Of a DNA stretch of 64,000 nt, positions 15,241-64,000 are shown piece by piece. The notes beneath the pieces are model-generated. The model was not told where the DNA came from and did not search any database. It saw only the letters and a program-made list of their open reading frames with translations. The DNA comes from Morinoia aosen (lineage: Eukaryota > Arthropoda > Malacostraca > Amphipoda > Talitridae), in the NCBI GenBank assembly GCA_030386875.1, contig CM059567.1, forward strand, positions 86,483,130 through 86,547,129, given 5' to 3'. The position numbers and the translations under genes were made by a program. How positions within the stretch are numbered: position 1 is the first letter of the stretch; every line of letters begins with the position of its first letter.

Positions 15241-15700
15241 GGCCTCTTCCCTTCTGACACTTCCAGGGCGCGACTCATGAGCGCGATGCGAGCAAGTTCT
15301 CCCATGGTTCTACCACAGGCCACCTGTTCAGGTGGCCTCTAGGCGAAACGTCTGCCACCTTTCTCGAGAGAAATGACGGTTACCGTCTTTCGCGTCAGTT
15401 TTGAAGTTGGTGTTGTGCGTGACACATGTCTGGATCGTGTCTCTATTGTTTAAAACGTTTCAAGTAGTGTTAGAGTGTATATCAGTGCGAGTGTGTATTA
15501 CGTGAGGGTGTATAGTACGTGAGGGTGTCAGAAGAAACAAGAGATGGAAGAGACGTAGAATGTGGTCTGGAGAGGCATTATTTCAAGAGCATGAACGGAG
15601 CAAGGACTGCTAGTTTCACCACTTCGGTCAATTGATATTTGTGACGATTCATCGTTGTGGTGGGGCTGGTAGCGAAGGCAAAACCTCAATGTGAGCAACG
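15241..15700. other. GC-richer segment with perfect palindrome
   Basis: This segment is clearly less AT-rich than its flanks. It contains a perfect inverted repeat at 15317-15338: AGGCCACCTG and its complement separated by TT, so it holds two outward CACCTG E-box-like sites. A short direct repeat TACGTGAGGGTGT follows at about 15500-15525. It could be a promoter or first exon, but no coding frame supports that. Confidence 0.35.
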
Positions 15701-15813
15701 TAAAAACAACAAAATGTGGAAACCAAACCTGAATTTTCCCTCGTCAGTCTTCAGCAACCTTTGAATTGAAGGACGTTCTTGAAGGTGATCGACGATGTGT
15801 TCAGATACATATT

Positions 15814-15930
15814 TGTGTGTGTGTAGGGGGAGGGGGGGCGGGGTTGTGTGTGGGTGTGGGAGTAGGTGTGTGGGAGGGGGGTGTGGGGAGGGTTTGTGTG
15901 TGGGGATAGGTGGGGGAGTGTGTGTATATG
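15814..15930 (+). repeat. G/T-rich microsatellite with G-tracts
   Basis: The stretch consists of interleaved GTGTGT and runs of three to eight G. At least eight G-tracts lie on the plus strand within about 115 bp, so the strand can in principle form G-quadruplexes. The His/Pro-rich open frames on the minus strand (15686-16026) are by-products of this low-complexity DNA, not genes. Confidence 0.85.
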
Positions 15931-16099
15931 AATAGCCGGTGTAATTAAGCTCGGGCAAGGTAAAAATATTTTATTTTCCTTTCTAATTTTTTTATTATGT
16001 ATATAGCTACGAGTATATTCTTTCAACGACCCTAGGGTATTGTTGCTATATTCTTTTCAAGGTACATTTATATTGTTCCCTGCAGGCTTTCGCCTCCAA

Positions 16100-16475
16100 G
16101 GCTGCGTACAGCTGATTTCCCATTATTGCACGTTCAACCGTTGACGCTTCTCAACCAAATATAGCCAGTTGCCCTTTAATTACCTTAGTTATTGCGTTGC
16201 GAAAACTTCAAGCATAAGTTATACGTCACAAACATGTCCCATTAATGTCAGCTTAATAATGAACACGCACCCTTGAAATTTTCTGCACATTAGTAGGAAT
16301 GTATTTAATTTACATACTCTGGTACATTTTTATTGTACTATCAACCGTGTTTGCTTATGATGAATTGATTAATCGCGCAAGAACTAAGGTAATTCAAGGG
16401 CAAACTGGTTATAATCGGTTTGAGCAGTGTGACGGTTTGAAAGTGTGACTAATGGGAAATCAGCTGTGCGCAGCC
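16100..16475. mobile_element. MITE with about 100-bp terminal inverted repeats
   Basis: The left arm, starting GGCTGCGTACAGCTGATTTC (16100 onward), is repeated in inverted orientation ending at 16475. Similarity continues inward for roughly 100 bp, to about 16197 and 16375, with scattered mismatches. The 376-bp unit has no coding capacity. No clear target-site duplication is visible, so its superfamily is open. Confidence 0.75.
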
Positions 16476-16499
16476 GTTTTTTTTAAACTAAATTAAGAG

Positions 16500-16740
16500 G
16501 TGGCCATCCTGGGCCTTTCATGATCTCCGATGGTGAATAGGAGAAACTGGTCGCGCCTTGGGAGCGCGACGGTAGTGCTCCATGCTGAGCCATGCGTGGC
16601 CACCGGTTGGGACAGAGGTGCAGGCGCGCCTATAAAGTGGACACTTCGAAGTTGCCTCATAGGAGACGCATGGATGAAACAACCATGCATATTTGGGAGC
16701 GCTCCCAAGAATCACCGATGCCACTCCTATAATTTTTAAT
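16500..16740. other. GC-rich patch with 16-bp perfect palindrome
   Basis: TTGGGAGCGCTCCCAA (16693-16708) is a perfect palindrome, and its half TTGGGAGCGC recurs at 16558-16567. Overlapping open frames exist on both strands with no recognisable product. A short SINE or decayed element is possible. It begins right after the MITE ending at 16475. Confidence 0.35.
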
Positions 16741-17200
16741 AGGGCGGAAGGTACAAGCAAATATGAGAGTATGTGGTACCACAACTCAGACCTAAATTGA
16801 CGTGAATAAAAACATTACGGCATTTGGAGAGACAACAAAATTCTACTAACTAAATATGAGCACGCACAAAGACGATCAATGTCTTAAATGTAGCCCTATT
16901 ATCCTACTTGGGACATATTTTATCAGCATGCTTATTTTTACCGAAATTTGTCTCCGTATTTGACAAGCACGGTAGTGATCTAAGTGGGTGCAATTCTAGT
17001 CCCCTCAACGTAAAAATAATTCCAGTAAAATAACCCTTTATCGATTGCATCGAAATCCAATTCTTTGAAGCAAAAATGATTGATAAATGACGACAAATAC
17101 TATCTCATTGGAACACTCTATATTTTTCCCTTTGCAGGCGTAGAGGCAATCATTATTTAATGAATTAACTTCACATAAGCTCTAAATAACCCTTATTATG

Positions 17201-32289: not shown

Positions 32290-33094
32290 ATGTGCGCTCC
32301 GATATCGTGTGACTTCAAATGCGTCGACTCTACGAAGCGATTCCATTCCATTGCTGGGAGATTCCAAACTAGATAGACGAGAGGGAAATAACTGAGAGAA
32401 ACACATTTTGCTCACACTTTAGCAACCTAGCAGAAAATAAACAATGTACGCAGCAGTTCTAATTGCCCTGCGGGTAGAAATGTTCATGCTAGGCCTAGAA
32501 AATACTCAACATAATATCGATAAAGATTATTTTTCTGGTAAACGATGAAACTCCCCAGACTCACAATTGGAACAAAATGTTAAGGCCACTCGTATTTTAT
32601 TCACATTTGAGATATCTTGTGAATAACAAAATTGAATGAAATTCATTTCATTCACTTTCATCTCAATCATGTCTTACAAAATAAACTAACAAGACTTTTC
32701 ATGGTAAAAATAAATGTTCAACTCAGGTAATAATTTCACTAAGCCACATATATCCCATACTTTATGCAGCAAGCGCTCAAATTCCACCCCGTGAGGTATG
32801 ATAATAATATAGCAACATTTAAAATTAGCCTTTGATAGCGTTACAAAGCATTTTTTAAAGGTTATTCATTTTACCACTGTCTCGAATTAAAGTTTAAGCT
32901 CGAATTTCGATTACTGTAAAATGAGGCGTGGAATAGCATAAAGCACGATCTCTTTCTTCATAAGTATGATAAGATGGTAATTATACCTCAGAACTACTAT
33001 GTACAGGTAATAACAAATACAAAAATTAAGATCACTGTTCATGTAAGAGAAACGAAACACTTTCGACGAGTTGTAAATGCTTCAGGTTAATTAA
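32290..33094. other. AT-rich stretch, nothing recognised
   Basis: I see no open frame, repeat or structural RNA that I can support. Confidence 0.5.
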
Positions 33095-33150
33095 CACTCA
33101 GAGAAATCTTGATACACCCAGGTGTGTCAACCTTGACGCACTCACAGGTC
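33095..33150 (+). repeat. CACTA-like transposon terminus with palindromic subterminal motif
   Basis: The sequence starts CACTCAGAGAAA and is followed by an imperfect palindrome (TTGATACACC, then CAGGTGTGTCAA) and by CTTGACGCACTC. The inverted terminus at 44997 starts CACTGAGAAAAA and carries the same motif. CACTA (EnSpm) transposons begin with CACT and have subterminal transposase-binding repeats, which this resembles. AA precedes this end. The rest of the element and its transposase are not recognised. Confidence 0.4.
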
Positions 33151-36100
33151 GGGCGAGAATGTAAAGTCACCGCCAGTAAGACAATGAAGTATCGGTTGCC
33201 TGTTTAGGGGTTTTGTTGATCCAAATTTTACATTTTCAACAAAATGTTCAATTCATACACCATAACAAGTAAATGTAAGCAAATATATGTCCATTTTTTT
33301 CACTTTTTCAGTTAATAAGATGAAAAAAGGAAAAAAATAAAGTTATTGCGTACGGTTTTTTCACGCATAAACATATTTGTTCAGTTCATTCCAAGATATA
33401 AGATATTCACTTCAGGGGACACGTTTCTCGCGTTTTAGGACTATGTGTACCATTAAGTAAATTACTTATTTGCATACCCGTATAAATTTTTGAAGTTTAT
33501 CTGCATCAAGATCTTTTTAAAATAAAAATATTTATTATACAAGGTGAAATGTTATCACGCAATTGTATTTCTCACATATCTCAGGAAGTATTTAAAATCT
33601 ATTTCCCAATTCTGCTACTTGCAACGTAACCAAACCAACCTTTAACAACCGCAAAAACGCGGTAAACGTGTTAATAACTAAAATTCAAGATATTAATGTC
33701 GATATACTAGAAGGAAATCACTATGAAAAATTTATAAGGCAACACTTTTGTTTACGACTCAAGCTTGTCGGTGTAATAAATTAACTTACACTTTCCAGCA
33801 GAATTATGCAGTTAAATTAGACGTATAATGAAGATAATGAAGGGCTTGGTAGAATGAAAGCTATTAAGAAATAGCGCATGAAAATTGCAATTATCTTCAG
33901 TTCGCCAATCACTAATCTATTTATCAAGTACTGAAGTAAATAGCTCATTTGTGTTCCTTCCAACGTCGTGAGAGGCAACCGCAGCTCACGCAGATATCCC
34001 GCGGCCTCGCCAACATGCATGCATGCATGCATGCAATGGCATGATTAATTAGTATCGGTCTGCTTGTCATTGCGGGTAGTCACGCGTGCATGTGTAATCC
34101 GCGAAGCACCCATATCCAGCGTACTTTTCGTAAGAAAGTGGTGTCCACTATCTTAGTGGTCTCATTCAAGACCCGAGTGATTTGTTTGGTGTATATTGAA
34201 AGCCATATGTACTTGTGCACCTGTTAAAACATATTGCATTCAATTACGTAGCAGTGAAACAACTAAAGTGGCATCTTAATTTCTGCCGCCATGATTTTTG
34301 TACCCGGGCTACCTAACTAGTTCGTTCACTTCATGATGATAACCTGAAAGTCATTCGCTCCAAAGCCTGTTTAATGTTTTGATTTTATTTCATGTGTAAA
34401 GAGGATATGTATTTGAGCGTCAAATGTGATTTTTTATCCATCAGCCGAAATACGGGCTTGTGGGTTGATAGATTACAGGTGACTCATCTTAAGCGTCTTT
34501 ATGCGACCTTGGCGTTCAAGTTCAAGGTCGCATCCTCGACGATTCGAATTTCTTGATTGTTTTCGGAAGGAATAGAGTAATAATTTATGTTGGCGTATAA
34601 ATGAATGGGTTTGAATTACTGGTTATTAATTTGTAATGATGCAAATGTGTAAAGAAGTAATTAATTAGAATGAAAAGCAACAGGGATGAAGTACAAAACC
34701 ATGTGTTACAGTTTCATGTGTGTGGGACATGGATTAACTTTTGCAGTCAAAATCATGTAATTATGTTAAAAGGTAATGAATGAATAATCAGTAACAGTAT
34801 TATGATTAGATAAAATCAGATATATGATTATTTTACTGAAAATTATCATTGATATGAAAATTCATTTAAACGCAGCCACGGTATATGTATCTTGCTTTGG
34901 GAAATTCATTTATCCAATCATGCGCATGAAATTTCAAGTTCAATATTACATTCAACAATGGCCATATGTTTAAAAAAAATAGCTTTGAAGAAAACAAAAC
35001 AAGCAGGTATAAAACTATATTACCTGATTTTTTGGACTAGGCTAAAGTTATTAGTCACACTAAGAGAACCTGGTGAAACCATGAATGTAATTCTTTTACA
35101 ATTATTATTGGCTTTAGTCTTATTGTTGGATAGCCTAACTTTTTTCTTTTTGCTTGCTTTTCAATAAGACCTTAGTTGATACTCATTTGGTATGTTCTTT
35201 TTCAAAAATATATCCTAATTTGTTTTGAAAGTTTTTGATATTTTTCAGCATTTGAAAATGAATTACAAACAGTGTTCCCTCTATTCTTGTTAGTCCAGAT
35301 TTATAGCTTCACTTGAATATTATTAAACTAAACAGATCATTGGCCCAGTAATGGCTTGATAAAATTATTCTCAGTTCCTTCAACTTGTGCTCGGAGTGAG
35401 CCTTCTCCATTAACCAATGATGTGAGTTCACTCAATCAAGGACAAAACTCATGTAAGTACTACTGCTCATTATATTATTAGTGCTTTAATTTTCTCTGCA
35501 TGAAATTCTTATTATAATTGATTAATTGATTAGCCTATATTAATTATTAGGTTATTAACTTGTAAATGGTACATAAATTATTGAAAATAGTTTTTCTTCT
35601 TATTCAATTTCATTAGAGTTTACTGATTAGTAGGTATGATAAAGAAAGGCTTTAACTTAAGCTTAATATGGGACCCAAGCATAATCAAGTATTTTGGTTT
35701 CACGTGAAAGTACTTCTATTAATTTTCTGTAGTTTGATGTTTTGTACAGGTTATTGTTAATGTAAATATCTATAAATAATGACTTTATAGCAGGCCTCTC
35801 CAGGATATATACCTACAGAATAGGATATGAGAAGACTGTCCTCAGAAAAGTTTGTTATAATGAAACTCAAACTTCCAACTCAAAAGTGCTTGATAATCAA
35901 TGAAAATTTAAATCTTTGTTACAGTCTACAATTCTTTTTAACATGTTCAGGCTACAGAGGATTTTGGTAAAATGAAGAAAAGTAGAATTAACTTCTTTGT
36001 TATCTTTAAAATAAATGTTTTGACTTACTGCAAGATATGTGACAGCCAAGTTCAGACTGTATATATGTATAGATAATCAAAGCAACAAATATGCTGAACA

Positions 36101-36410
36101 TGGAGTTGCCAGTTTGCTTAAGCAATTCATAATTCATGATTGGAAATTCGTGAAACTAAAATAGATCCAATCAGAAGTTGATTTTGATAAGAAGATGTTG
36201 ATTGCACTTATGTTTTCTATACAAATAAATGAAGAATGACCATAGTTTAAAGTATAATAGCTTGAATAGGTATGTTAGAAGAAGTACTTTAATATAAATT
36301 TCTAACCAATAATTATGTCTGACAATATAAAGTTACTGTCTACATTTCCATGTTCCAGAGTAGCTGGAATTAACTAATCGTAAAAATTCATAAATTTTAA
36401 CGTTGAATTT
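33151..36410. other. AT-rich stretch; short GCAT repeat
   Basis: A short (GCAT)n run lies at about 34015-34035. A 91-codon plus-strand frame at 34892-35167 is hydrophobic toward its end (Leu-rich), but it has no splice or family support. Nothing else is recognised. Confidence 0.45.
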
Positions 36411-36631
36411 CAGCACGTATGTTTCGCGAATTCCGCACACAGCGAAGGCGGGCGAGCATTGACGTTCGTCCACAAAATGAAAATTTTGGCTATCGGATGT
36501 TTCACATTGTGATGATGAAAATAAAACACAATAATAATTGTTAGACGAAAACTCTCTAGGTGAGGAAAAAAATCATGTGAGAGTATATTTTTTGTCTTTC
36601 TTGAATAATAACATGACCTTAATTTTTTCAG

Positions 36632-36754
36632 ATATGCATTGAATTCGTGGGAATCACTGAGATGAATATCATCGATCGATGCAATGCGAGATAATCTCCT
36701 GGAAATATGCAGCTGGAATACTTCAAGTGTCTCGTGAGGTGTCCATACCTCGCC
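36632..36754 (-). CDS. possible coding exon, unrecognised
   Basis: On the minus strand the tract CTTTTTACTTGTCTTCACAG is a strong 3' splice site ending at 36755. The frame after it reads GEVWTPHETLEVFQLHISRR and continues with LSRIASIDDIHLSDSHEFNA. It stays open to about 36410, but the sequence becomes repeat-like and Ile/Phe-rich past about 36600, so the exon probably ends near 36615-36635. No good donor is obvious. The plus strand of the same block has its own acceptor and donor signals but an early stop, so the minus reading is preferred. The family is unknown. Confidence 0.3.
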
Positions 36755-37368
36755 CTGTGAAGACAAGTAAAAAGGTAAGAACTTCATTCTATTGTTATTT
36801 TAGCAGTTTTTGTCCCTCAATTATTGAGAAAAAATGAAAATGAAACATTTGTCTTCTAAAGGCAGTTGTTAAAATAGTCCAAGCAAACGCAAGAATGAAG
36901 GCAAAATTTCATTTGAAAAAAGTGAAAATCATTTGTTGTCATTTCATAATTATTCCTTCATTGTAGAGTTGGCGTGCAGAGTGAACATTAAATTACTTAC
37001 ACTAATGAAGGAATCCTGGATTTAAATATTTTTTAACGAATATTGACCTAATGTTAAATCATAACAAGTAATTACCCATCAAGTCAGTCTTCATATGGAA
37101 GATATTAGAGATATGAATTTTTAGAAAAATAAGTATTTAAACCCATCATGTTCGTACTACAATGCGAGGAAATTTATTCAAACCCTACGTTATTACTGAA
37201 AATGTAGTCGACCGTTATTCTAATAAGCATATCATGGATGCTAATGAACTTACAAACGACCAAGCAAGCATTTAAACAAACTAAATTATAAAAGTTTTAT
37301 TGTATTCAGGTCAAATTTCTCAAGATTGTAAGTGACACACATACTAAAATTTTTCTTTTTTCACCCAG

Positions 37369-37530
37369 GAGCCATTACCGATGACCATCTTCGACGGTCC
37401 AAACATTTGGCTCCAGCCACATGCGAGAGACTTGTGGCAGAAGGAGGAGAGGTCTGCGCTTTTGAAGGACGCTGACATAGCAGTCGAGGGTGGAAGTTGC
37501 TACGGTTTCGATTGCTGCCATCCTAAATGA
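37369..37530 (+). CDS. possible terminal coding exon, unrecognised
   Basis: A pyrimidine-rich tract (TTTTTCTTTTTTCACCCAG) ends at 37368 and is a textbook acceptor. The frame that starts at the next base stays open for 53 codons and then stops (TGA 37528-37530). It begins EPLPMTIFDGPNIWLQPHAR and ends GGSCYGFDCCHPK. The residue mix is protein-like and the C-terminus is rich in cysteine. No upstream exon could be joined with confidence. The diverged 21-bp repeat block starts about 75 bp downstream. The family is not recognised. The minus strand is also open here, which lowers confidence. Confidence 0.3.
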   Translation, partial: EPLPMTIFDGPNIWLQPHARDLWQKEERSALLKDADIAVEGGSCYGFDCCHPK

Positions 37531-37599
37531 TGCTGCGCGACTTTCCATAAGATAAAACTCGAGTAAGTGACAATTAGGTCTCGTCTTCAGACTACACTT

Positions 37600-37765
37600 T
37601 TTCACTTCAAATTAATCCAAGTCAAATTCGAATTAATCCAAGTCAAGTTTGAATAATCCAAGCCTACTTCAAATTAATTCAAGTCAAGTTCAGTTTAATT
37701 AAAGTCAAACTCCATTTGATCCAAGCCAAAGTTAAATTAATCCAAGTGAAATTCAAATTGATATA
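37600..37765. repeat. diverged copy of the 21-bp tandem repeat
   Basis: About eight degenerate copies of the unit containing AATTAATCCAAGTCAA, in the same orientation as the left palindrome arm. The flank CTACACTTTTTCACTTC matches the outer ends at 39424 and 43340. The block ends AACCCTAAGTTGGAG, comparable to AACCCTCAGTTAAG at 39601. It is therefore an old copy of the same repeat arm, not chance simple sequence. Confidence 0.75.
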
Positions 37766-37769
37766 ACCC

Positions 37770-38460
37770 TAAGTTGGAGTCGAAGTCATTAGCTGTACAA
37801 TTGTGATTAAATACTTGTTCAGAAAATTTAGGTATTGACTACCCAGTTCTTAATTCAAGGTACACTCCGCATTGTACTCCGTCTAACGAAGATAGTGAAA
37901 TTCACAGTACTCATGTCCCCAACAAACTTACCTATTTAGTATAAAGTCTTAATTATTTAAACAGTCTCCTTTGTATCATTCATGAACAAAGAATTAAAAT
38001 TTCATTATAAAGCAGAACTTCCCTTTCTAGTTCCAGGTTGCGTTTATCAGCTGATCTCTTAGCAGATCAAACAATTCACAGCATAAGTTGTAGGAGGCTT
38101 TATAAAGGCAATAGGATACTGCTGGGTAACCTCATCTATTGATAGGCCCTTGAGACTTCTTTCGCGACCACCTTGATTTTTAGTTTCCATATCCTCTTCG
38201 TTGACTTTCATGCCATTTCTTTTTCTATTGCAATACTAACCTGCTGTTTTAATGTGCAGGGTACCCTTGGTGGGAATCACTTCGTGCTTAAGTTCAATGT
38301 TTTTTAACAGTCGATACTAAATGTATGTCTCCTCAGGGGGATACAGCTGTTGTATCTATGGGAATTAGCGCTCCCAAGGGGACAATGTGAGGGCCCGAGC
38401 TGAGAGTTAGCTAAGTAGGCTTCTTTCTTTGTTGGAATAGAATAGGTTTTTTTTTTGTTA
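37770..38460. other. stretch without recognisable gene
   Basis: I see no supported feature between the old 21-bp block and the broken reading frame that follows. Confidence 0.5.
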
Positions 38461-38672
38461 CGGACCATCTTTTTTCGGTTCACTGCTGTCCTGTTTTTCA
38501 CCACCTACTACTTTCTTCTTGAACTTTGATCTTGTTTCATGAACTTCTTTCTCACCTTACTGTTTCTGTGCCTTTTCTGCATAGATTCTACGATCCCTCA
38601 ACTCCATACTAGATGGTGCCTTCTTCCTTCCTCTCTTTGGATTGCCTTTGTTGCAGATAGGGAGGTTAAACT
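38461..38672 (-). pseudogene. broken basic-protein reading frame, unrecognised
   Basis: A minus-strand frame reads LPICNKGNPKRGRKKAPSSM, then ELRDRRIYAEKAQKQ and a TAA (38557-38559). It continues in the same frame with GEKEVHETRSKFKKKVV up to the next stop (38458-38460). The strong Lys/Arg bias and the continuation past the stop suggest a decayed gene rather than chance. A diverged copy of its first part (CAAAGAGAGCAAGGAGAAG on the minus strand) lies about 80 bp upstream, near 38710-38740, so the region was partly duplicated. It could be a transposon accessory gene or a host nuclear protein; neither is established. Confidence 0.3.
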
Positions 38673-38969
38673 AACTAATAATCTAATCTACTAAATGTTT
38701 GTCTCTTCTCCTTGCTCTCTTTGGATCGCATATGTTGTGGTTAAGAGAATCTTAATATTAAGCTTACGAATAAATTATTAATGAAAATTAATAACTGAAC
38801 TTCGGAAAGACCACGAATCTGACCCTACAGATTAATCACACTGTTATGAAGTTGTGTCCACCTATCCCATAGATCCTCATCAAAGCAACAGTTTTACTAA
38901 CATCATGTAAAAAATGTGTTAAATTTGTTGATAAAAATTCATTGCATGTATTCTTTCTTACTTGAGCAG

Positions 38970-39128
38970 AACAGGCTAGCAGGATCCGGTGCCCGTAACT
39001 CGACCAGTCGACAACCTCGTCCAGCGACAACGACAACCTCGTCCAGTCCTCACCTCCACCAAAAGATCTCGGTATCGCTGCCAGTGGCCGTCAACACACC
39101 CGAGTCATGGCCATTTGACATAGCTTAA
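38970..39128 (+). CDS. possible terminal coding exon, unrecognised
   Basis: The tract ATTCTTTCTTACTTGAGCAG ends at 38969 and could be a 3' splice site. The frame beginning there reads NRLAGSGARNSTSRQPRPAT, is rich in Ser/Thr/Pro, and runs 52 codons to a TAA (39126-39128). The block is GC-richer than its surroundings. It has the same phase and strand as the exon candidate at 37369-37530, so the two might be alternative last exons of one gene, but no upstream exon is identified. The short CAACCTCGTCCAG repeat inside it argues for some caution. Confidence 0.22.
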   Translation, partial: NRLAGSGARNSTSRQPRPATTTTSSSPHLHQKISVSLPVAVNTPESWPFDIA

Positions 39129-39662
39129 GGTTGCGTTGTGGAATTTTAGTTTGGTGTAAAAATTTTTCGTTTAAACTCGTATTGAGTTCCAAAGGAACAC
39201 GCCTACTTTACAGTGAATGAGAATTTCATTTGTGCGATGATAAGCAATAGGAAATTATTTCACCGTTTCAGAATAGAGAGAATGTTTCCTAATGTTGCAT
39301 GAGACCTTTTTTCGTTAACTTGAAGTGAATATGATACTAAAAGGATTAATGTAGCTTTTCGCTTGTTTATACATTCTCTAATTTATGTAGAAATATCCGT
39401 ACTATTGTAAAAAAATTAATGGTCACTACACCTTTTTCAGTTCAAATTAATCCAAGTCAAGTTCAAATTAATCAAAGTCAAGTTCAAATTATTCCAAGTC
39501 AAGGTCAATTTAATCCAAGTCAAAGTCAAATTAATCCAAGTCAAGGTCAAATTAATCCAAGTCAAGTTCAAATTAATTCAAGTAACAATCGAATTAATCC
39601 AACCCTCAGTTAAGTTAAAAAATGATACCATCACTTGTTAATTTGAGCTTTTTTGTGTTATA

Positions 39663-39828
39663 CAGGGTGTTTCAAAAATACACGGCATAATTTCAGGTAT
39701 GTATTTCCCACATGTAGACAATCAAAATAGTTCATTACAACATATGTCCGGAAATGCTTCATTTCCGAGTTATGGCCTTCACAACATTGAAATTCACCGG
39801 AACGTTTTTCTTTCCGCAGGTCGTTGCC
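39663..39828 (+). repeat. left terminal inverted repeat of the DD41D element
   Basis: 166 bp, a perfect match to the complement of 40987-41152. It begins CAGGGTGTTTC and ends CAGGTCGTTGCC. Long ends like this are unusual for classical mariner, which has about 30 bp. Confidence 0.95.
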
Positions 39829-39917
39829 GTCAAAGGACACATTAAGAGGGCACTCTGACAGATCATTCCTAGGCGAAGGTTAAATTCAGTGTTGTGTTTG
39901 GCGTTCGACTGTGTGTC

Positions 39918-40985
39918 ATGTACACAAATCAGGAGCTGGCAGAGATGCACTTGATCTACGGTAAGGCAGACGGCAATGCTGCGCTGGCTCGTCGTTTGTA
40001 CCAGGAGAGGTACCCACAGCGACAATGTCCAGATCGGAAGACATTTGTAAGTCTCCATCAGCGTCTGTGCGAGTATGGAAAATTTGACTCTCCTGGATTG
40101 GGAAGGGGACGACCAAGATCTACAACTCCAGAAGAACAGGAGGAGATTCTGGAGATTGTGAACAGAACTCCTTCTATCAGCACACGAAGGTTAGCGTTGC
40201 AAGTGAATGTTCCCCATACGACTGTCTGGAGACTGCTGAAAGAGTATCAATTGTATCCTTACCATTTGCAACGTGTACAGGCGCTGTCACCAGCAGATTA
40301 CCCTGCACGAGTTAGGTACTGTCAGTGGTTCTTGCAGCAATGTGCTGCAAATCCGAACTTTCCTGCCTTAGTATTATTTACAGATGAAGCACAGTTCACA
40401 CGAGATGGCATAACAAATCTCCACAATCAGCATGTATGGGCGTATGAAAACCCAAATGCAACTGTTGTATCTCATCACCAGGTGCGGTTCTCCCTCAACA
40501 TGTGGGCCGGTATCATTGGTGATCGGTTAGTTGGACCCCATGTACTTGTAAACAGACTTACGGGGCAGGCGTACACAAACTTCCTGGAAAACATCATACC
40601 TGATGTTTATGACGACACTCCACTGATCGATCGTCAGCACGCTCACTTCTTGCATGACGGCGCTCCTGCACACTTCAGTCGTACGGCTCGCCGGTACTTG
40701 GATCGAAGATTTCCTGATCGATGGATAGGTAGAGGTGGCCCAATTGCTTGGCCTCCACGCTCACCTGATCTGAACCCTCTCGATTTCTACTTGTGGGGCC
40801 ATTTAAAATCATTGGTTTATTCGTCTCCGGTGCCTGATTTGGAATCCCTTCGGAATCGAATTGTGGCACGCTCTGAGGACACACGCAACATTCCTGGAGT
40901 GTGGGATCGTGTTCGCAGGTCAATGAGACATCGATGTGAGGTCTGTATTCAAGCAGGAGGTGGTCATTTTGAACATCTTCTGTAA
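39918..40985 (+). CDS. transposase, DUF4817 plus DDE_3 type, intact
   Basis: A cut-and-paste transposase acting on the ends of its own element. I start it at the ATG at 39918 (355 residues); an upstream GTG at 39894 is in frame but unlikely. The N-terminus (about residues 1-55) is the helix-turn-helix module labelled DUF4817 in insects. A second HTH follows at about 75-110 with the GRGRPR hinge between them (residues 62-67). The catalytic triad is visible: D156 in LFTDEAQF, D247 in HDGAPAHF and D289 in SPDLNPLDFYLW. There are 41 residues between the last two, giving a DD41D signature rather than the DD34E of Tc1 or DD34D of mariner. No stop or frameshift interrupts it. The stop codon sits two bases before the right terminal repeat. 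Remnants of a related protein occur at 22317-22833. Confidence 0.93.
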   Translation: MYTNQELAEMHLIYGKADGNAALARRLYQERYPQRQCPDRKTFVSLHQRLCEYGKFDSPGLGRGRPRSTTPEEQEEILEIVNRTPSISTRRLALQVNVPHTTVWRLLKEYQLYPYHLQRVQALSPADYPARVRYCQWFLQQCAANPNFPALVLFTDEAQFTRDGITNLHNQHVWAYENPNATVVSHHQVRFSLNMWAGIIGDRLVGPHVLVNRLTGQAYTNFLENIIPDVYDDTPLIDRQHAHFLHDGAPAHFSRTARRYLDRRFPDRWIGRGGPIAWPPRSPDLNPLDFYLWGHLKSLVYSSPVPDLESLRNRIVARSEDTRNIPGVWDRVRRSMRHRCEVCIQAGGGHFEHLL

Positions 40986-40986
40986 T

Positions 40987-41152
40987 GGCAACGACCTGCG
41001 GAAAGAAAAACGTTCCGGTGAATTTCAATGTTGTGAAGGCCATAACTCGGAAATGAAGCATTTCCGGACATATGTTGTAATGAACTATTTTGATTGTCTA
41101 CATGTGGGAAATACATACCTGAAATTATGCCGTGTATTTTTGAAACACCCTG
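40987..41152 (-). repeat. right terminal inverted repeat of the DD41D element
   Basis: 166 bp, the exact complement of 39663-39828. It begins right after the transposase stop codon and ends ACACCCTG at 41152, followed by TA. Confidence 0.95.
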
Positions 41153-42058
41153 TATATGGATCTATTGGATGTGATGAGCAAGACAGGTTTCGAGGTTTTA
41201 TTTACACTCGAATATATTTATATACGTGAGATTTTACTGTATCACATGCATGAAATCATATACGCAAATACAAAAGATTATCATTGGACGATATGTAGAT
41301 TTAAACTTTTAAAGGAATATTGAAATGTGATTCACTGAGTACGAATGTACGATTCCGTTTGATTACAATTCAAAGGAGTACATTACTACACTGATACATT
41401 CATGCATTAGCAATGAAAATATCACCATCCTTTCTAATTCCGTGTTAGTCAATGTGGAGAAGTGTAGGATCCACTTACAATACACAATAATAATAATACA
41501 AAAACAATATTTCTAACTTAATGCTGATTTTATTTGTGTGTGTTTACAATTCAATATATGATGCTTTCAAGACTTAAATAACTTTTATGATAATCATTTA
41601 ATGAATATTCAAGTCTTGATAATATTATATATTGAATTCTAAACACGCACAAATAAGATCAGCATTATGTTAGAAACATTGTTTCTTGTATTATTATTGT
41701 GTATTGTAAATGGATCCTACATTCCTTCACATTGACTAACAAGTAATTATAATGGATGGCAATATTTTCATTGCTAGTGCAGGAATGTATCTGGGTAGTA
41801 ATGTAATTGTACTCAAACGAAATCGTTCATTATTACTCAGTGAATCGCATTTCTATATTCCTTTAAAAGTTTAAATCTACATATCGTCCAATGATCATCT
41901 TTTGTATTTGCGTATATGATTTCATGCATGTGATACAGTAAAATTTCACGTATATAAATATATTCGAGTGTAAATAAAACCTCGAAACCTGTCTTGCTCA
42001 TCACATCCAATAGACCCATATATATAACACAAAAAAGCTCAAATTAACAAGTGATGGT

Positions 42059-43357
42059 ATCATTTTTTAACTCAACTGAGGGTTGGATTAATTCGATTGT
42101 TACTTGAATTAACTTGAGCTTGACTTGGATTAATTTGACCTTGACTTGGATTAATTTGACCTTGACTTGAATTAATTTGAACTTGACTTGGATTAATTCG
42201 AACTTGACTTGGATTAATTTGAACTTGACTTGGATTGAATTGAACTTAACTTGGATTAATTTGAACTTGACTTGGATTAGTTTGAACTTGACTTGGATTG
42301 AATTGAATTTGACTTGGATTAAATTGAACTTGACTTGGATCAAATTGAACTTGACTTGGATTGAATTGAACTTGACTTGGATTGAATTGAACTTGACTTG
42401 GATTGAATTGAACTTGACTTGGATTAATTTGAACTTGACTTGGATTAAATTGAACTTGACTTGGATTGAATTGAACTTGACTTGGATTAATTTGAACTTG
42501 ACTTGGATTAATTTGAACTTGACTTGGATTAATTTGAACTAGACTTGGATTTATTCGAACTTTACTAGGATTAATATGAACTTTACTTGGATTGAATTGA
42601 ACTTGACTTGGATTAATTTGAACTTGACTTGGATTAAATTGAACTTGACTTGGATTAAATTGAACTTGACTTGGATTAAATTGAACTTGACTTGGATTAA
42701 ATTGAACTTGACTTGGATTGAATTGAAATTGACTTGGATTGAATTGAACTTGACTTGGATTGAATTGAACTTGACTTGGATTATATTGAACTTGACTTGG
42801 ATTGAATTGAACTTGACTTGGATTGAATTGAACTTGACTTGGATTGAATTGAACTTGACTTGGATTAATTTGAACTTGACTTGGATTAATTCGAACTTGA
42901 CTTGGATTAATATGAACTTTACTAGGATTAATATGAACTTTACTTGGAATAAATTGAACTTGACTTGGATTAATTCGAACTTGACTTGGATTAATTCGAA
43001 CTTGACTTGGATTAATTTGAAATTGACTTGGATTTAATTGAACTTAACCTGGATTAATTTGAACTTGACTTGGATTATATTGAACTTGACTTGGATTAAA
43101 TTGAACTTGACTTGGATTAAATTGAACTTGACTTTGATTAAATTGAACTTGACTTGGATTAAATTGAACTTGACTTGGATAAAATTGAACATGACTTGGA
43201 TTAAATTAAACTTGACTTGGATTAAATTGAACTTGACTTGGATTAATTTGAACTTGACTTGGATTGAATTGAACTTGACTTGGATTGAATTGAACTTGAC
43301 TTGGATTGAATTGAACTTGACTTGGATTGAATTGAACATGACTTAGATTAATTTGAA
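42059..43357. repeat. 21-bp tandem repeat array, about 60 copies
   Basis: The unit as read on the plus strand is built on TTGAACTTGACTTGGATTAA, with G/A and A/T variants at a few positions. Because 21 is a multiple of three and the unit lacks stops in several frames, long open frames arise on both strands (heptads such as LNLTWIE and QVKFNLI). These are artefacts. A variant block with TTTACTAGGATTAATATG occurs at 42561 and again 357 bp later (17 units), so part of the array was duplicated as a block. The end CTTAGATTAATTTGAAGTGAC matches the complement of the ends at about 37600 and 39430. Confidence 0.95.
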
Positions 43358-44850
43358 GTGACAAAGGAGTAGAATTATCTGATTTTATAGCGTACATTTC
43401 CTTTAACTGCGATTAGTAATATGTAATGTTCTATTAGTCGTGTAAAAAATACTACTATTAAGCTGTTTAGCCACAGTTATTATAAGAATTCTTATAAGTG
43501 ATGAAATCGGGTAGAATTCTTTTTGCGGTTACAACTTGAAAAACATTTTCTCTACAGCAGTGTAAGACTTTGTCCAATTCTGCAACAACTCCTGTTTTTT
43601 ACGGAACCCAAAGTGAAAAATAAAATATTTTCCGTTCTTTCGAAAGCTCCTGAATTTATTTGGAAACGTTCTTGAATGAAAATATAATCATTCTGTGTGG
43701 AGATGAATCATGATTTCATTTGTGTTCGGAAAGTTATTTTAATTTTCACAATGAAATCTTTTCACCTTTGCTTAAGACATGCGTTATTTTACAAGAACTT
43801 AAATTAATTATGAAACTAATAGCAGAACTAAATTATTTCCTTCCGTATGAATATTTCTAGGTTCACCTGGAAATGAGTACAGAGCAGAATTTTTTTATTT
43901 CACTTAGAGTCCTATAATATAATACTATTCATTAACTTGATCTGTGATTGATAGAAAAATATTTTAAAATGCGATTTAACATTTCTAAAGGTATTGCGAG
44001 AAAGTAGAATGTTACTTGTGTGACTTGTGTTTTGGGAACTTTTTGTTTCAAAATAGAGAATTCTTGTACTATAGCGTGAGACCTTTACGTTTCTTGTTAA
44101 ATATGAAATTAAAATTGAAAAAATATGTTTTAATTGTTAGGACCTTTCTTGATTACGCATGCGGAAAAGTTCTCACAGATGTACACAGAATTTATCCTAA
44201 ATGTTGAATAATTTTTTTCACTTCCAGTTCTAAGTAGATAAACATTTAGTGCTGAATTTGTTTCACCTTTTTTACTGTTTATGACTTAAACTATTAATTT
44301 TCTGAGAAATAAATACCGAGAAAATGTGTATTTCAGTGTTGAATAAAATGGGCGAACTGAACTGATGCTGTTTTTATTTGAATGAATGAAGGATGTGGTC
44401 ATGTTGAAGCCTATTTTTAGAGCGTGAAAGTTCTTAGTTATTTAGAATACAATTCGTTATGAATTCAGGGCTTTCTTCATTCGATGAATGTATAGGTATT
44501 GTAACCGTCACAGTGATTCAAGCTCATATATCGTGTTAATATACATTTAACATTGTTGTGGAGAAGTTATTGAAGATGTTCCCAATTTATTTGCTGATTT
44601 CAATTAATCTGTTCTACTCAATAAATTTTTGAAGTTTCTCTACACTACGGTATGCAATTTAAGAACTGATTTTGTTCTGTGGAAATAAAGTGATAATTTT
44701 AAATTTGAAAATCAAGAGTTGATACACCATAAGCCTCAAATACTCGTAGTTCAATAATCCTGTATAACCATTTTTCTTGATCCACGGGCGAGTCAGAGGG
44801 GTATGGTAGGAGTAAGTTAAATCTATGTTTTAGGTTCCGTAGATTTCCCC
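43358..44850. other. AT-rich stretch without recognisable gene
   Basis: There are short open frames only. Nothing supports a gene, RNA or transposon terminus until the motif cluster beginning at 44852. Confidence 0.5.
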
Positions 44851-44851
44851 T

Positions 44852-44997
44852 AGGTGTGTCATGACGGCCCTAAGTGTGTCATGTAACACACTTAAGTGTG
44901 TCATGTCGCCTCCATGACACACAATTGTGTGCCGGTTTTGTGACAAACGTATGACACGCCTAAGTGTGTCAAAATGACCCTATATTTTTTCTCAGTG
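44852..44997 (-). repeat. CACTA-like terminus with clustered palindromic subterminal repeats
   Basis: Read from 44997 leftward, the end is CACTGAGAAAAA. It is followed by repeated TGACACACTTAG-type sites in both orientations: at 44952-44971 (palindromic pair), 44913-44931, 44884-44905 (ACACTTAAGTGT core), 44871-44883 and 44852-44863. Clustered direct and inverted short motifs next to a CACT terminus match the architecture of CACTA transposon ends. AA follows the terminus, as AA precedes the opposite-facing end at 33095. No CACTA transposase is recognised in the window. Confidence 0.5.
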
Positions 44998-44999
44998 AA

Positions 45000-45910: not shown

Positions 45911-46213
45911 ATACAGTGATTAGTAATACACTTTATTGAGGTGAATCTACCATTTGAGTACATTTTCAATAATCTATAGCGTGACCTTTCATCTTCATAA
46001 CATTTTCAAGCCTTTTATTAAAGTTTTTGATAAGCTTTTCCGTAGTTCCATCCTTCAATGGTGATTCGTTTCAATTCCTGAAGATTCTTTGGAGCTCTTT
46101 TGTTGATGTTGACTTTTAATTCCTGCCACAAATTTTCAATGGGATTGATATCAGAACTCATCGAAGGCCATGGCAGCATATTTATTTTATTTCTTTGGAG
46201 CCAGCTAGTTGTA

Positions 46214-46983
46214 CGAGGCCTGTCGAAAAAGTATCCGACCTTTGGCCAGAAAAAATACTTCAACAACCTGACGGGGTTGGGACCCTAATCCCCTTCAAAG
46301 TAGGCTCCTTGTGCTTCCACACACTTAGCCCACCGATCCTTCCACTGCCGGAAACACCTCTGGAAGTCTTCTTTTGGAATGGTGTTCAGCTCTGTCGTCG
46401 CGTTCCGCATTATCTCTTCTCTACTCTCAAAACGGGATCCTTTCAGTGGTGTCTTCAATTTTGGAAACAACCAGAAGTCGCAAGGAGCCAGGTCTGGAGA
46501 GTAGGGAGGTTGGCGAACGGTCGTAATTCCATGTTTGGCCAAGAAATTGCGGATCAAATGGGATGAATGTGCGGCCTGCCACAACGCCTGCCACAACGCT
46601 GCTCACTCTCCGCTGATGTGCGGCCATCTTTGAATCGGTTGAACCACTCCTTAATTTGTGTTACACCCATAGCATCTTCCCCAAACACCTGCTGAATCTT
46701 ACGAATTGTTTCAATTTGAGAATCACCAAGCTTTTGACAAAATTTGATGCAGTGTCTTTGCTCAATTCGTTCAGTCATCTTGCAAGAAAACTAAATCCGA
46801 CAAACACTTAGAACAGCACCTTACTTGGCGACCACCAGCCAGTGACTGGCCCAAGTGAATGCGGTGAAAAAAGTCAAGCATGCGCATTAAGATTCCTCCT
46901 TCCACCGTGCACAGTGGCGCCGCCTTAGAATCACTACTTTGCGCGGGAAAAATTAAGGTCGGATACTTTTTCGACAGGCCTCG
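46214..46983 (-). mobile_element. internally deleted mariner element inserted in the Tc1 gene
   Basis: The 770-bp element has terminal inverted repeats of about 29 bp (CGAGGCCTGTCGAAAAAG and onward) at 46214-46242 and 46955-46983. TA duplications lie at 46212-46213 and 46984-46985. The insertion falls between the HTAE motif and the final catalytic segment of the Tc1 transposase. Confidence 0.93.
46285..46778 (-). pseudogene. mariner transposase, internal deletion
   Basis: The N-terminal DNA-binding part (MTERIEQRHCIKFCQKLGDS, with VTQIKEWFNRFKDGRTS at about residues 38-54) is followed after a messy CTGCCACAACG repeat by the C-terminal part. That part contains HGITTVRQPPYSPDLAPCDF, which includes the third catalytic Asp of the mariner DD34D triad. 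A full-length mariner protein is about 345 residues. Here the middle, with the first two catalytic Asp, is missing and the frame shifts across the junction. The copy cannot encode an active enzyme, but it keeps both ends and could be mobilised in trans by a relative. Confidence 0.88.
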
Positions 46984-47105
46984 TACATTCGGCCGTGTGC
47001 TTTGGGTCATTGTCGTGTTGAAATTCCCACGCCTTCCAAGTCCCAAACTATTAGCTGATACCTTCAGGTTTTCGTCCAAAGTAGAAATATAGTCATCAGA
47101 GTTCA

Positions 47106-47604: not shown

Positions 47605-49211
47605 ATTTTGACTCCCTAAAATTCATAAAGCCAATTTTTTGACTAATTTTCCATTCCGTCCAATATTTGCAGTTATAATACTGCTAGTTATCAACTGGCA
47701 AAGTTCCTTCTACCAATTTTATCACCTTTTACTGTAAAGATGAAGAGAATCTTTTTACCAATGTTCCTATTATCGAAACCATAGATATATGGTCAAACCT
47801 TTCACTTACCAACCCGTCTTCCACTATAACCGGCCTAAATCGTTCCTTTTTAAAACCTTGTTGCAGCATTCTGTTTTAAATTCGTTCTTTTGTTTCAATG
47901 AGAAATTTTACAAACAGGCCGATGGACTTGGTATGGGCTTGACACTCGGTCCCACCTTTGCAAACATTTTTATGTGCCACTATGAGACCAAATGGCTGGC
48001 TCAGTGGCCTCCTCATTTTCGTCCTATATTTTATCAGAGATATATCGATGACACTTTTATGCTCTTCCACGACCCGTCCCATTCTGCCCATTTTCTTGAT
48101 TTTTTGAATTCAAAACATAGCAATATCAGGTTCACAGTTGAACCAGAGGTCGGTAGTATGATTTCATTTCCAGATGTCTTAATTTCTAAAGCGAAGGAAT
48201 TTTCTTAACTTCCGTTTACCAAAAACCTACTTTTACGGGACTCGGTACTAGTATTTTTAGTTTCACATCTAATCTCTTTAAAATTAATGGCATAAAAACC
48301 CTGTTACATAGAGCCTTTGCTCTATGTAACAAATTCAAATTACAATTTACTTCACGATGAATTCTCTTTTTTTGTAATTTTTTCATGAATGATGGTTTTC
48401 CTGTTGCTTTAGTTCGATCTTTGATAGAACGTTTTTTAAATTCCAAATATAGCTCACCCGCCAATCTCGTCGATAGTACAAGAAAGAGATTATACTTACC
48501 TTTTTTATACTTTGGGCCTAAATCTGAACAAATGAGAACAGAGCTTGTGAAACTTCTTCACTCATATTTACCTGATGTTGATTTCAAAATTATTCCTGCG
48601 AACAAATTCACTATAGGTTCACTTTTCAACTACAAAGATAAATTACCTTCTAGCATGCGCCGCTCTCTTATATATGAATTTCGTTGTGCACAACGTGCAT
48701 CTAGTTATGTAGGCTCGACCTGCAGAACTTAGGGCGTTAGAGTAGCGGAGCATGCTGGACGTATTATCCGGACTGGAGGGATTCTTGCCCATCCCCCCAC
48801 TCCTCGGTGCGCCTCCATAGTGAACAATGTGGCTCCAGGGTGCAGTGCAATAATTTTAGCATTTTAGCTTCAGCCAGCCATCAGAATGATTTAAGAATTT
48901 AAGAGTCCTTGAATATTTTTACACACAAGCCGCCTCTTAAAGAAACTAATAGTGACCACCCTTTGTACATAGTTTCCTCTTGATTTTAGTAGTAGTATTT
49001 TTTAGTTCTGTGTTTAATTCTCGCATATTTTTATCTATTCATCTAAGTTTTGTTCTTTTCAGAACACTTGTACTGTTGATGAGCCTGGTGCTCGAAACGT
49101 TTACCTTTTAAAGCAATAAATAATTTTACCAATGTTGACTTTGAGAGTAGCAACCTTGGTGTTTTTAATAACGATTCGTTTGCGTAAGAAAGCAATTAAT
49201 GATGTTTTACA
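47605..49211 (+). mobile_element. 5'-truncated Penelope-like element inserted in the Tc1 gene
   Basis: About 1.6 kb lies between two copies of TTAGCAAA (47597-47604 and 49212-49219), which I read as the target-site duplication. Removing the insert and one copy restores the Tc1 frame (KKFA followed by KFGTVET). The 3' part contains CTGGTGCTCGAAACGTTTAC (49086 onward), like the 3' regions of many Penelope-like elements. The 5' end begins inside the RT coding region, so the copy is truncated. Confidence 0.85.
47614..48983 (+). pseudogene. Penelope-like reverse transcriptase with GIY-YIG endonuclease, decayed
   Basis: The motifs appear in the family order: LPKIHKANF (47619 on), then after a frameshift YQLAKFLLP, LFTNVPIIET, FYKQADGLGMG, FANIFMCHYE and the catalytic YIDDTF, then FPDVLISK. 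The 3' half has KRLYLPFLYFGP and the start of the GIY-YIG module, YVGSTCRT, interrupted by a stop before GVRVAEHAGR. Remnants continue to PLYIVSS and a stop near 48983. The first RT catalytic region is altered (DEENLFTNVP instead of an Asp-bearing DVxSLFTNVP). Frameshifts and stops show it is dead. The combination of this RT type with GIY-YIG is diagnostic of Penelope-like elements. Confidence 0.88.
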
Positions 49212-55214: not shown

Positions 55215-55600
55215 CCTGGTCATTTTCATAATCTGGTCATTTTCATAGTCTGGTCGTTTTCATAATCTGGTCATTTTCATAACCTGGTCATTCTCATAAT
55301 CTGGTCATTTTCATAATCTAGTCATTTTCATAATCTGGTCATTTTCATAATCTAGTCATTTTCATAATCTGGTCATTTTCATAGTCTGGTCGTTTTCATA
55401 ATCTGGTCATTTTCATAATCTAGTCATTTTCATAATCTGTTCATTTTCATAATCTGGTCATTTTCAAAATTCTGGTAATTTTCGAAATTCTGGTCAGTTT
55501 CAAAATTCTGGTAATTTAAAAATTTTGTTCATTTCAAAAATTCTGACCATATTCTAAATTATAGTATTTTTCTAAATTCTGGTCATTTCTTGTATAATTT
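55215..55600. repeat. 17-bp minisatellite decaying to the right
   Basis: About 15 copies of TGGTCATTTTCATAATC occur from 55217 to about 55470, with C/T and A/G variants. A TAGTC variant alternates with TGGTC in part of the array. To the right the unit becomes 18 bp (TTTTCAAAATTCTGGTCA) and then decays to about 55590, a gradient of homogeneity across the array. Confidence 0.92.
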
Positions 55601-60638: not shown

Positions 60639-61075
60639 TTCCATACGAGGAGTACTAATTGACAAACCATCCGAGGTGTACAAGTAGATGAGCCATACGA
60701 GGCATAACAATAGACAAACTATACGAGGTGTACTAATAGACAAACTGTCAGAGGTGTACAAGTAGATAGACCATACGAGGCATATTAATTGACAAAATAT
60801 ACGAGGCGTACTAATAGACAAACCATTCGTGGTGTGCTAGTAGTCTAACAAAAGTTCTATACTAGGAGTACTAATTGACAAACCATCCGAGGTGTACAAA
60901 TAGATAAGCCATACGAGGCATAATAATAATAGGCAAACTATACGAGTTGTACTAATAGACAAGCTATCAGAGGTGTACAAAATAGATAGACCATACGAGG
61001 CATATTAATAGACAAAATGTACGAGGCGTACTAATAGACAAACCACACGTGGCTTGCCAATAGTCTATCTCTGTC
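60639..61075. repeat. minisatellite with 216-bp higher-order repeat
   Basis: The basic unit is about 28-30 bp, of the type GACAAACTATACGAGGTGTA followed by CTAATA. Seven or eight diverged units form a block of 216 bp that is present twice: AGTACTAATTGACAAACCAT occurs at 60651 and again at 60867. Between blocks the corresponding units agree better than neighbours do, which shows that the multi-unit block was duplicated as a whole. Open frames here are repeat artefacts. Confidence 0.88.
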
Positions 61076-62487: not shown

Positions 62488-64000
62488 CTATGACAGAGAT
62501 GCAAAATGACGTGACACATTTACTCTAAATTCTTTTCCAGTTTTAGAGTTTTTGATATGCTGGGGAAGCTTGTTCCACAAAAAAGCTCCAGAAACTGAGA
62601 GAGCTTTTTGTCCCACGTTAGATGAACGGTAACTGACTAACACATCATTCCTCCGGTTTGGTCTTTCGTTTGGGATATTAGATGGAAAAAAATTTACCAC
62701 CGCTGCATTACTTTGGGGGAGGTACAGAGAGGAGAATACTCGTCGAGCTTTCTGGATCATGAATCTGTTCGGTATTGGGATCCAGTCGAGTTTTCTTAAA
62801 AGAGGGGTGACGTGATCGTATTTATTAAAATTTCCTTTGCATACCACTTTGGCGGCGAAGTTTACACATTTTTGCAACTCTTCCTGACGACATTTAGGTA
62901 AGTCTCCCCACACAAGACTGCAGTAGTCCAGACGCGATAAAACTAAAGACTGAATCACTAACAATCTAGATTTTTCGTCAAGTGTGTTCTTTATACGATG
63001 AAAGAACATTAAGGTTCCGTTAATTTTGTTGCACATTGTTTCGACGTGTGAATTGAAAGTCATATTTTTGTCAAACCAAACACCCAGATTTTTAACCTTA
63101 TCGACTGGTTTAATTGTATCGTCTCCAAATGTTAGCTTGAATGGTGGTAAATTTCCAGTCGCATTCTGTGATCCAAAAATAATGCATTGCGTTTTACTTG
63201 CGTTAAGTTTGAGGCCATTATGGTCATACCACAATTTCAGATTTCTCAGAAGGTTTTCAGCGTTGGCTTGTGTTTCTGTTAAATCCGCTGTTGAGCTTGT
63301 CATGGCACTCTGTACGTCATCAGCATACATTGAGATTTTTGTGTTTGCCGGCATGGTGGGGAAATCGTTGATGAAAATTGAAAATAGGAGTGGGCCGATG
63401 ATTGAACCTTGAGGAACGCCAAAGTTATTTGGTATGAATGATGACATTTTGTTATTCAAGCACACTGCATGAGAGCGGTTTCGTAGGTAGCTTTCAAACC
63501 ACTGAGTGTCTATTCTGAGGTTTGAAATTTTTTGTAGAAGTTTCTTATGCTCAACACTGTCGAAAGCTTTGGAGAGATCAAGCAATAGTAAGAGAGTTAA
63601 TTTTTTTTGGTCAATATCATTGTAAATTTTTTCTGTTATGTTTAACAGGGCGTCCTGAGTACTGGTATTCCTCCTGTAAGCATATTGATTGCGATGCAGT
63701 AGATGTGACTCGTCTATGTAAGACGAGAGCTGGTTTGTTATTACTTTTTCTAATATTTTGGACATAACAGGCAGGAGACTGATTGGTCTGTAGTTTGACG
63801 CTATGTCGATATCACCAGATTTATGTAATGGCTTAATTATGGATAGTTTCCATTGATCGGGAAACTTGTTTGTGACTATAGATGTATTTATTATCAAGCG
63901 AATAAAGGGTGCTGTGACAGGGAAGCTGTCTTTAATATGTTGGAGGCTTATGCCATCATGTCCAGTCGCTTTAGTATTCTTTAGTGAGTATAAGATTTTT
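62488..64000 (-). CDS. non-LTR retrotransposon reverse transcriptase, C-terminal part, open to window edge
   Basis: The minus-strand frame is open from the window edge (KNTKATGHDGISLQHIK is encoded at the extreme end) to the stop at 62488, about 503 codons. RT motifs in order: NYRPISLLPVMSKILEK, NQYAYRRNTSTQDALL, the catalytic LLLLDLSKAFDSVEH, GVPQGSIIGPLLFSIFINDF, the catalytic YADDVQ, LNASKTQCIIFG and LGVWFDKNMTF. The end resembles the SGAFLWNKLP phrase common at the C-terminus of Jockey/CR1-type ORF2 proteins, so that superclade is likely, though the exact clade is not settled. The upstream endonuclease would lie beyond the window. No stop or frameshift is seen, unlike the old relic at 17.2-19.3 kb, so this copy is comparatively young. 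Confidence 0.92.
   Translation of the reverse strand, partial: KILYSLKNTKATGHDGISLQHIKDSFPVTAPFIRLIINTSIVTNKFPDQWKLSIIKPLHKSGDIDIASNYRPISLLPVMSKILEKVITNQLSSYIDESHLLHRNQYAYRRNTSTQDALLNITEKIYNDIDQKKLTLLLLLDLSKAFDSVEHKKLLQKISNLRIDTQWFESYLRNRSHAVCLNNKMSSFIPNNFGVPQGSIIGPLLFSIFINDFPTMPANTKISMYADDVQSAMTSSTADLTETQANAENLLRNLKLWYDHNGLKLNASKTQCIIFGSQNATGNLPPFKLTFGDDTIKPVDKVKNLGVWFDKNMTFNSHVETMCNKINGTLMFFHRIKNTLDEKSRLLVIQSLVLSRLDYCSLVWGDLPKCRQEELQKCVNFAAKVVCKGNFNKYDHVTPLLRKLDWIPIPNRFMIQKARRVFSSLYLPQSNAAVVNFFPSNIPNERPNRRNDVLVSYRSSNVGQKALSVSGAFLWNKLPQHIKNSKTGKEFRVNVSRHFASLS

Follow-up and report, generated by a model that had tools for sequence, protein, structure and literature searches.

Is the giant palindrome near 41.6 kb of the window (the whole 64,000-nucleotide stretch of Morinoia aosen DNA analysed here) a foldback transposable element, and how did it come to lie at this place with two such unequal arms? 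A sequence-only reading had described two inverted arms whose outer parts consist of 21-bp tandem repeats, with about 8 units on one side and about 60 on the other, and had raised the possibility of an undescribed foldback family. We compared the locus with itself, with its copies in the genome and with related sequences in which the palindrome is absent.

Structure of the palindrome

In self-BLAST, including a window-wide run, the segment 41153-42022 matched itself in inverted orientation over 885 columns at 87.9%, and 39436-39662 matched 42023-42249 at 94.3%. TRF resolved the outer parts as a left array of 7.8 21-bp units (39439-39602, plus strand) and a right array of 60.7 such units (42083-43357, minus strand), so that both the inversion around a centre near 41.6 kb and the satellite-like composition of the arms were borne out. 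When a mariner-like element lying in the left arm was removed, the inner arms (left, 41155-41588, plus strand, with its outer end at 39603-39660; right, 41598-42082, minus strand) could be aligned almost end to end, from CCCTCAGTT to a centre near 41.59 kb, the number of identical positions per 60 columns being 57-59 over the outer 240 columns and 44-52 across the full blocks farther in. The arm score was 623 as against a maximum of 34 among 200 dinucleotide-block shuffles, indicating a palindrome far beyond chance, and its reality was confirmed. The limits proposed earlier, 39419-43357, had to be corrected: self-BLAST, the arm alignment and the empty-site alignment described below place the element, CACCTTTTTCAG...GACAAAGGAG, at 39429-43369 (plus strand), between a TA target duplication at 39427-39428 (site AC-TA) and its counterpart at 43370-43371 (site TA-G). 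A half copy was also detected by TRF and self-BLAST at 37592-37777 (plus strand), consisting of the end CTACACTTTTTCAC and 7.4 array units without the opposite arm; it resembled 39425-39611 at 79% in the window-wide self-BLAST, and no reverse array belonging to it was found in 37778-39424.

The mariner-like insertion interrupts only the left arm and occupies 39661-41154 (plus strand) including its two TA duplications; its terminal inverted repeat is identical over 168 bp, and a domain search revealed HTH and DDE_3 transposase domains in its ORF of 363 amino acids (39894-40985, plus strand). It entered the window copy later, interrupting a foldback already in place. The same element was also seen within two other foldback copies (L048 and L051) at other positions, and these mariner-like copies were 99.7-99.8% identical to that of the window over the parts read, which points to a young family.

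Several further repeats were noted in the window. A separate 17-bp tandem array of 17.6 units (CTGGTCATTTTCATAAT; TRF) lies at 55216-55517, and at 60641-61049 repeats of 26 bp are organised into a 78-81-bp higher-order array with two blocks 89.6% alike. A perfect 33-bp inverted repeat with its halves 0.7 kb apart (46210-46242 and 46955-46987) is maybe a small transposon; in L020, a piece of it (46212-46302) lies next to sequence of the foldback carrier, at 3860. The repeat at 15163-16744 contains an internal inverted repeat (16100-16196/16376-16475) and has a 92.8% copy in L034 (2960-4584), about 1 kb downstream of a carrier copy. Reverse transcriptase fragments (RVT_1) were found at 62488-63897 (minus strand) and 47789-48208 (plus strand).

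Copies in the genome and the carrier transposon

A 938-bp query (41153-42090) returned 3062 first-look candidates genome-wide, and all of the 40 places scored, including the window, matched the whole query at 96-100%; the palindrome is therefore not confined to one locus. The end motif CTACACYTTTTTCASTTCAAATTAATCCAAGTC occurred 4226 times (2142 plus 2084) in the 1.99-Gb genome with up to 3 mismatches allowed, the reversed control giving no occurrence, and the viral contigs held no match to the foldback end. The genome also has (TTAGG)n arrays (6553 plus 8496 matches), which point to an arthropod. We fetched 30 end loci, all of them on contigs C1 and C2, from among the matches listed (first 100 of 4226). 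Judged by their left flanks, 14 lay in a second carrier family (carrier B), one (L052) in the carrier of the window, and two pairs shared flanks with each other, and the remaining 11 loci, corresponding to 10 copies because L043 and L044 are two ends of one copy, were at unrelated flanks. Carrier B, seen in 14 of the loci L035-L064, is a GC-rich family bearing CCCCGG repeats, with 1742 first-look candidates. The foldback has thus been mobile. Its copies end in CACCTTTTTCAC and GTGAAAAAGGTG with the 21-bp arrays next to these ends, and the inverted arms with internal tandem repeats, together with dispersed copies at unrelated sites sharing the same ends and a TA duplication seen from empty sites, are what is expected of a foldback element, as the sequence-only reading had suggested. 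No description of it was found, so the family is apparently undescribed and is named as new on its structure, our literature comparison covering open PMC papers.

The window copy is not free-standing; it proved to be a passenger inside a larger transposon which had been missed. In the 30 loci of the closest lineage (one being the window itself, and L004 and L005 being identical to each other), the flanks beyond the palindrome were shared in every case as far as the stretches reach; when longer stretches around two loci were compared, 33094-44997 was common with the window and nothing outside was. The carrier occupies 33095-44997 (plus strand), with sharp ends CACTCAGAGAAA and TTTTTTCTCAGTG common to two copies with unrelated flanks, and is bordered by a 2-bp duplication AA at 33093-33094 that matches AA at 44998-44999. 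Its termini are of the CACT..AGTG type, and five TGTGTCA/TGACACA motifs (44855, 44875, 44897, 44915, 44965) fall in the final 143 bp (3' subterminal region, 44855-44997, plus strand). Searches with the carrier ends (5', 40 scored of 327 candidates; 3', 40 scored of 707) were paired into 26 full-length copies, of which 24 measured 10.1-11.1 kb, the window copy with its mariner 11.9 kb and one 21.1 kb. For 23 carriers, namely the window, two others (of which one also belongs to the 26) and 20 further members of the 26 that were newly fetched, the flanking dinucleotides were examined, and they were identical on both sides in 22 (TA 12, CA 7, TG 2, AA 1); the single failure, L122, had no proper carrier 5' end and was excluded from this tabulation. 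The 12 TA sites had C before in nine and G after in six.

In the available portion of PMC6004678, CACTA/CMC elements are marked by 5'-CAC and GTG-3' termini and a duplication of 2 bp, and since the carrier shows such ends and duplications in 22 of 23 copies, we regard it as CMC-like. It shares these features with CMC-NA/ENS1 as portrayed in the same excerpt, but unlike those elements it is about 10.4 kb long and holds foldback and half-foldback inserts; no transposase was found in it. In 33094-39425 a carrier coding region was not found, the longest open frame there being 129 codons and a 125-aa ORF having no Pfam match. Two side observations concern individual carrier loci: a long tandem array with many overlapping self-matches lies outside the carrier copy in L032 (6585-9901), and the L004 and L005 carriers (C6, 58.88 Mb and 57.49 Mb, 1.39 Mb apart) are each 10872 bp long, have identical stretches of 3938 bp, and represent either a segmental duplication or an assembly duplication.

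The long array was found on the same side of the centre in all 30 lineage loci, so the asymmetry is older than the spread of these loci. The right array had 18-66 units in the 24 loci whose far end fell inside the stretch, and the left array 7-10 units in 27 of the 29 loci measured (the value of 19 for L027 includes other sequence and became 7 units on recount). Ten other copies with both ends measured were 0.8-1.5 kb long and carried 2-17 units per arm, from which it follows that the window lineage has an expanded arm. One-sided array expansion, as proposed earlier, is supported by these counts as an old event. One foldback copy entered the CMC-like carrier before the carrier spread, its long arm being already longer at that time, and the carrier has since multiplied this passenger.

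Insertion site and the source of transposase

The insertion site was read from carrier copies in which the two flanks are joined without the foldback. For the window's carrier, 40 of 854 candidates were scored and eight relatives were contiguous across the site at 82-84%; only one of these was a clean CTAG (ggttaCTAGaattatc, aCTAGa), four reading CTAATGTAG and two CTAAAATAG (CTA-nnn-TAG) and one CTAA. The filled site of the window is ggtcaCTA[CACC..GGAG]TAGaattatc. For carrier B, 40 of 1742 candidates were scored and gave seven contiguous copies, six of them with ACTAGT exactly, and its filled sites read tACTA[CACC..]TAGTg. The layout obtained from the empty copies is AC-TA-[CACC...GGTG]-TA-GT, and two unrelated carriers agree on it: TA alone is duplicated, while the adjoining C and G are part of the target. 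The foldback inserts at TA in CTAG (ACTAGT at most sites) and duplicates TA only, which is unusual for foldback elements; the long duplication that had been expected is absent, the actual one being 2 bp. Long target duplications at CTAC ends were considered and rejected, none being present at the copies with both ends (L040, L041, L043 and L063), as the empty sites explain. A Helitron/Helentron origin, with insertion at A/T and no duplication, was likewise dropped since TA is duplicated at the empty sites. For the flanks of L041/L042 no empty site was obtained, all four candidates being the two loci's own flanks.

The wider set of ends was less uniform. A preceded C in 14 of 19 distinct flanks, one of the 19 being misread, and among 114 exact inner ends on contigs C1-C5, counted by hand from the listed rows and not independent because carriers multiply them, 91 had TA (79 CTA, 12 with another base before TA) and 23 did not (6 with another base for T, 17 with another base for A). 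We fetched 10 copies with a left end of AA or CA; a credible right end was present in eight, L131 and L132 having none, and it was TA in all eight, so the non-TA left ends look like altered TA rather than other duplications. The TA-nnn-TA sequences in the carrier relatives look like excision footprints, and could also be older variants of the site.

In the search for an autonomous copy, the foldback end without array gave no match, and no transposase-like ORF was recognised by eye among the longest ORFs of six foldback copies; long frames in the interiors of L048 and L051 were set aside as the mariner-like insertion already known from the window. We consider it very likely that the palindrome represents a foldback-shaped cut-and-paste DNA transposon which is non-autonomous, inserts at TA and would be served in trans, probably by an IS630/Tc1/mariner transposase. 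Such an enzyme would bind the foldback ends, perhaps also the array units, cut at TA and reinsert at TA, and unequal exchange or slippage would alter the length of the arrays. The view of array units as putative transposase-binding sites is borrowed from Galileo, as presented in an excerpt of PMC3573991.

That the odd shape is a false inverted duplication made during assembly has a negligible chance, there being nothing in its favour beyond the shape itself. The many full-length copies elsewhere exclude an artefact confined to the window locus, the arms differ (87.9%), the mariner sits in one arm only and the copies are on different contigs; array lengths could be corrected by long reads, though the family is not an artefact. 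Only slightly better placed, and still very improbable, is an integral part of the carrier that arose by inverted duplication and was never mobile alone. Carrier flanks common to all 30 closest-lineage loci, as far as the stretches reach, would agree with such an origin, but eight carrier relatives lack the foldback and have contiguous flanks, and same-ended copies are found within carrier B as well as at unrelated sites. It is similarly hard to uphold, and we judge extremely unlikely, an element of the classical Mutator/Foldback (MULE) kind, of which FB and Tetris are examples: the architecture agrees, the inverted arms being long and containing tandem arrays, and the accessible part of PMC4079207 regards most foldbacks as probable Mutator elements, but the duplication is 2 bp and not 8-10 bp at the empty sites of two carriers.

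A more serious alternative, though one we still regard as unlikely, is that a CMC (CACTA/Mirage/Chapaev) transposase, perhaps the carrier's own, moved the foldback. Like the CACTA elements of PMC6004678, the foldback begins with 5'-CAC, finishes with GTG-3' and is flanked by a duplication of 2 bp, and the carrier itself has such ends, 2-bp duplications and a mild C-TA-G preference; these ends are, however, common to Tc1/mariner-like elements and thus not decisive. Against a CMC transposase, only 12 of the 22 carrier target sites were TA, whereas the foldback used TA at the empty sites of both carriers; the opposite end was TA in 8 of 8 altered foldback ends, and the end sequences of foldback and carrier are unlike beyond CAC. 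The foldback is probably better assigned to IS630/Tc1/mariner (Tc4- or IS630-like by target) than to CMC, because TA-only duplication in C-TA-G, a TA target duplication being typical of that group, resembles IS630 and Tc4. A fuller scenario is put forward tentatively, its chances falling a little short of even: an IS630/Tc1/mariner foldback with strict ACTAGT targeting and expanding transposase-binding arms, which spread in part by inserting itself at TA and for the most part as a passenger of unrelated transposons, seeding satellite as it went and leaving TA-nnn-TA footprints.

Significance and comparison with known systems

If that scenario is true, seeding satellite has been scattered through a 2-Gb arthropod genome by TA insertion and passenger spread. 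The nesting provides a natural experiment in which one foldback with one long arm was copied many times by its carrier, and since these copies have a single origin (18-66 units in 24), array change can be followed and the step from transposon to satellite becomes directly measurable.

According to the title of Tenzen and Ohtsubo 1991, cited in PMC2170065, IS630 targets the TA of CTAG and duplicates it, and the foldback is like it in both respects; IS630, however, is bacterial, encodes its own transposase and has no foldback arms. Tc4 has a fold-back structure and is the nearest precedent for a foldback shape outside Mutator. It belongs to the IS630/Tc1/mariner group in Caenorhabditis elegans and, in the passage available from PMC11071193, has the palindromic target C-T(N)A-G with the TNA centre duplicated. 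Compared by description only, the two are alike in fold-back form, in a palindromic target and in duplicating only its centre, and differ in that the foldback duplicates TA in CTAG instead of TNA in CTNAG and has 21-bp arrays in its arms. Membership in Tc4 was rejected, the empty sites being CTAG. With foldbacks mostly assigned to Mutator in the portion of PMC4079207 at hand, a numerous one that duplicates TA alone within CTAG shows that a superfamily other than Mutator has given rise to this form as well. Tetris of Drosophila virilis, as characterised in that portion (PMC4079207), is likewise a non-autonomous foldback with tandem repeats in its arms and can seed satellite arrays, but it has 8-10 bp duplications and 220-bp repeats and is proposed to be a Mutator element. 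Galileo, of the P superfamily, shares with the foldback long inverted repeats containing internal tandem repeats, which in Galileo expand independently in each arm, and differs by its 7-bp flanking duplications and known P-type transposase, according to the extract of PMC3573991.
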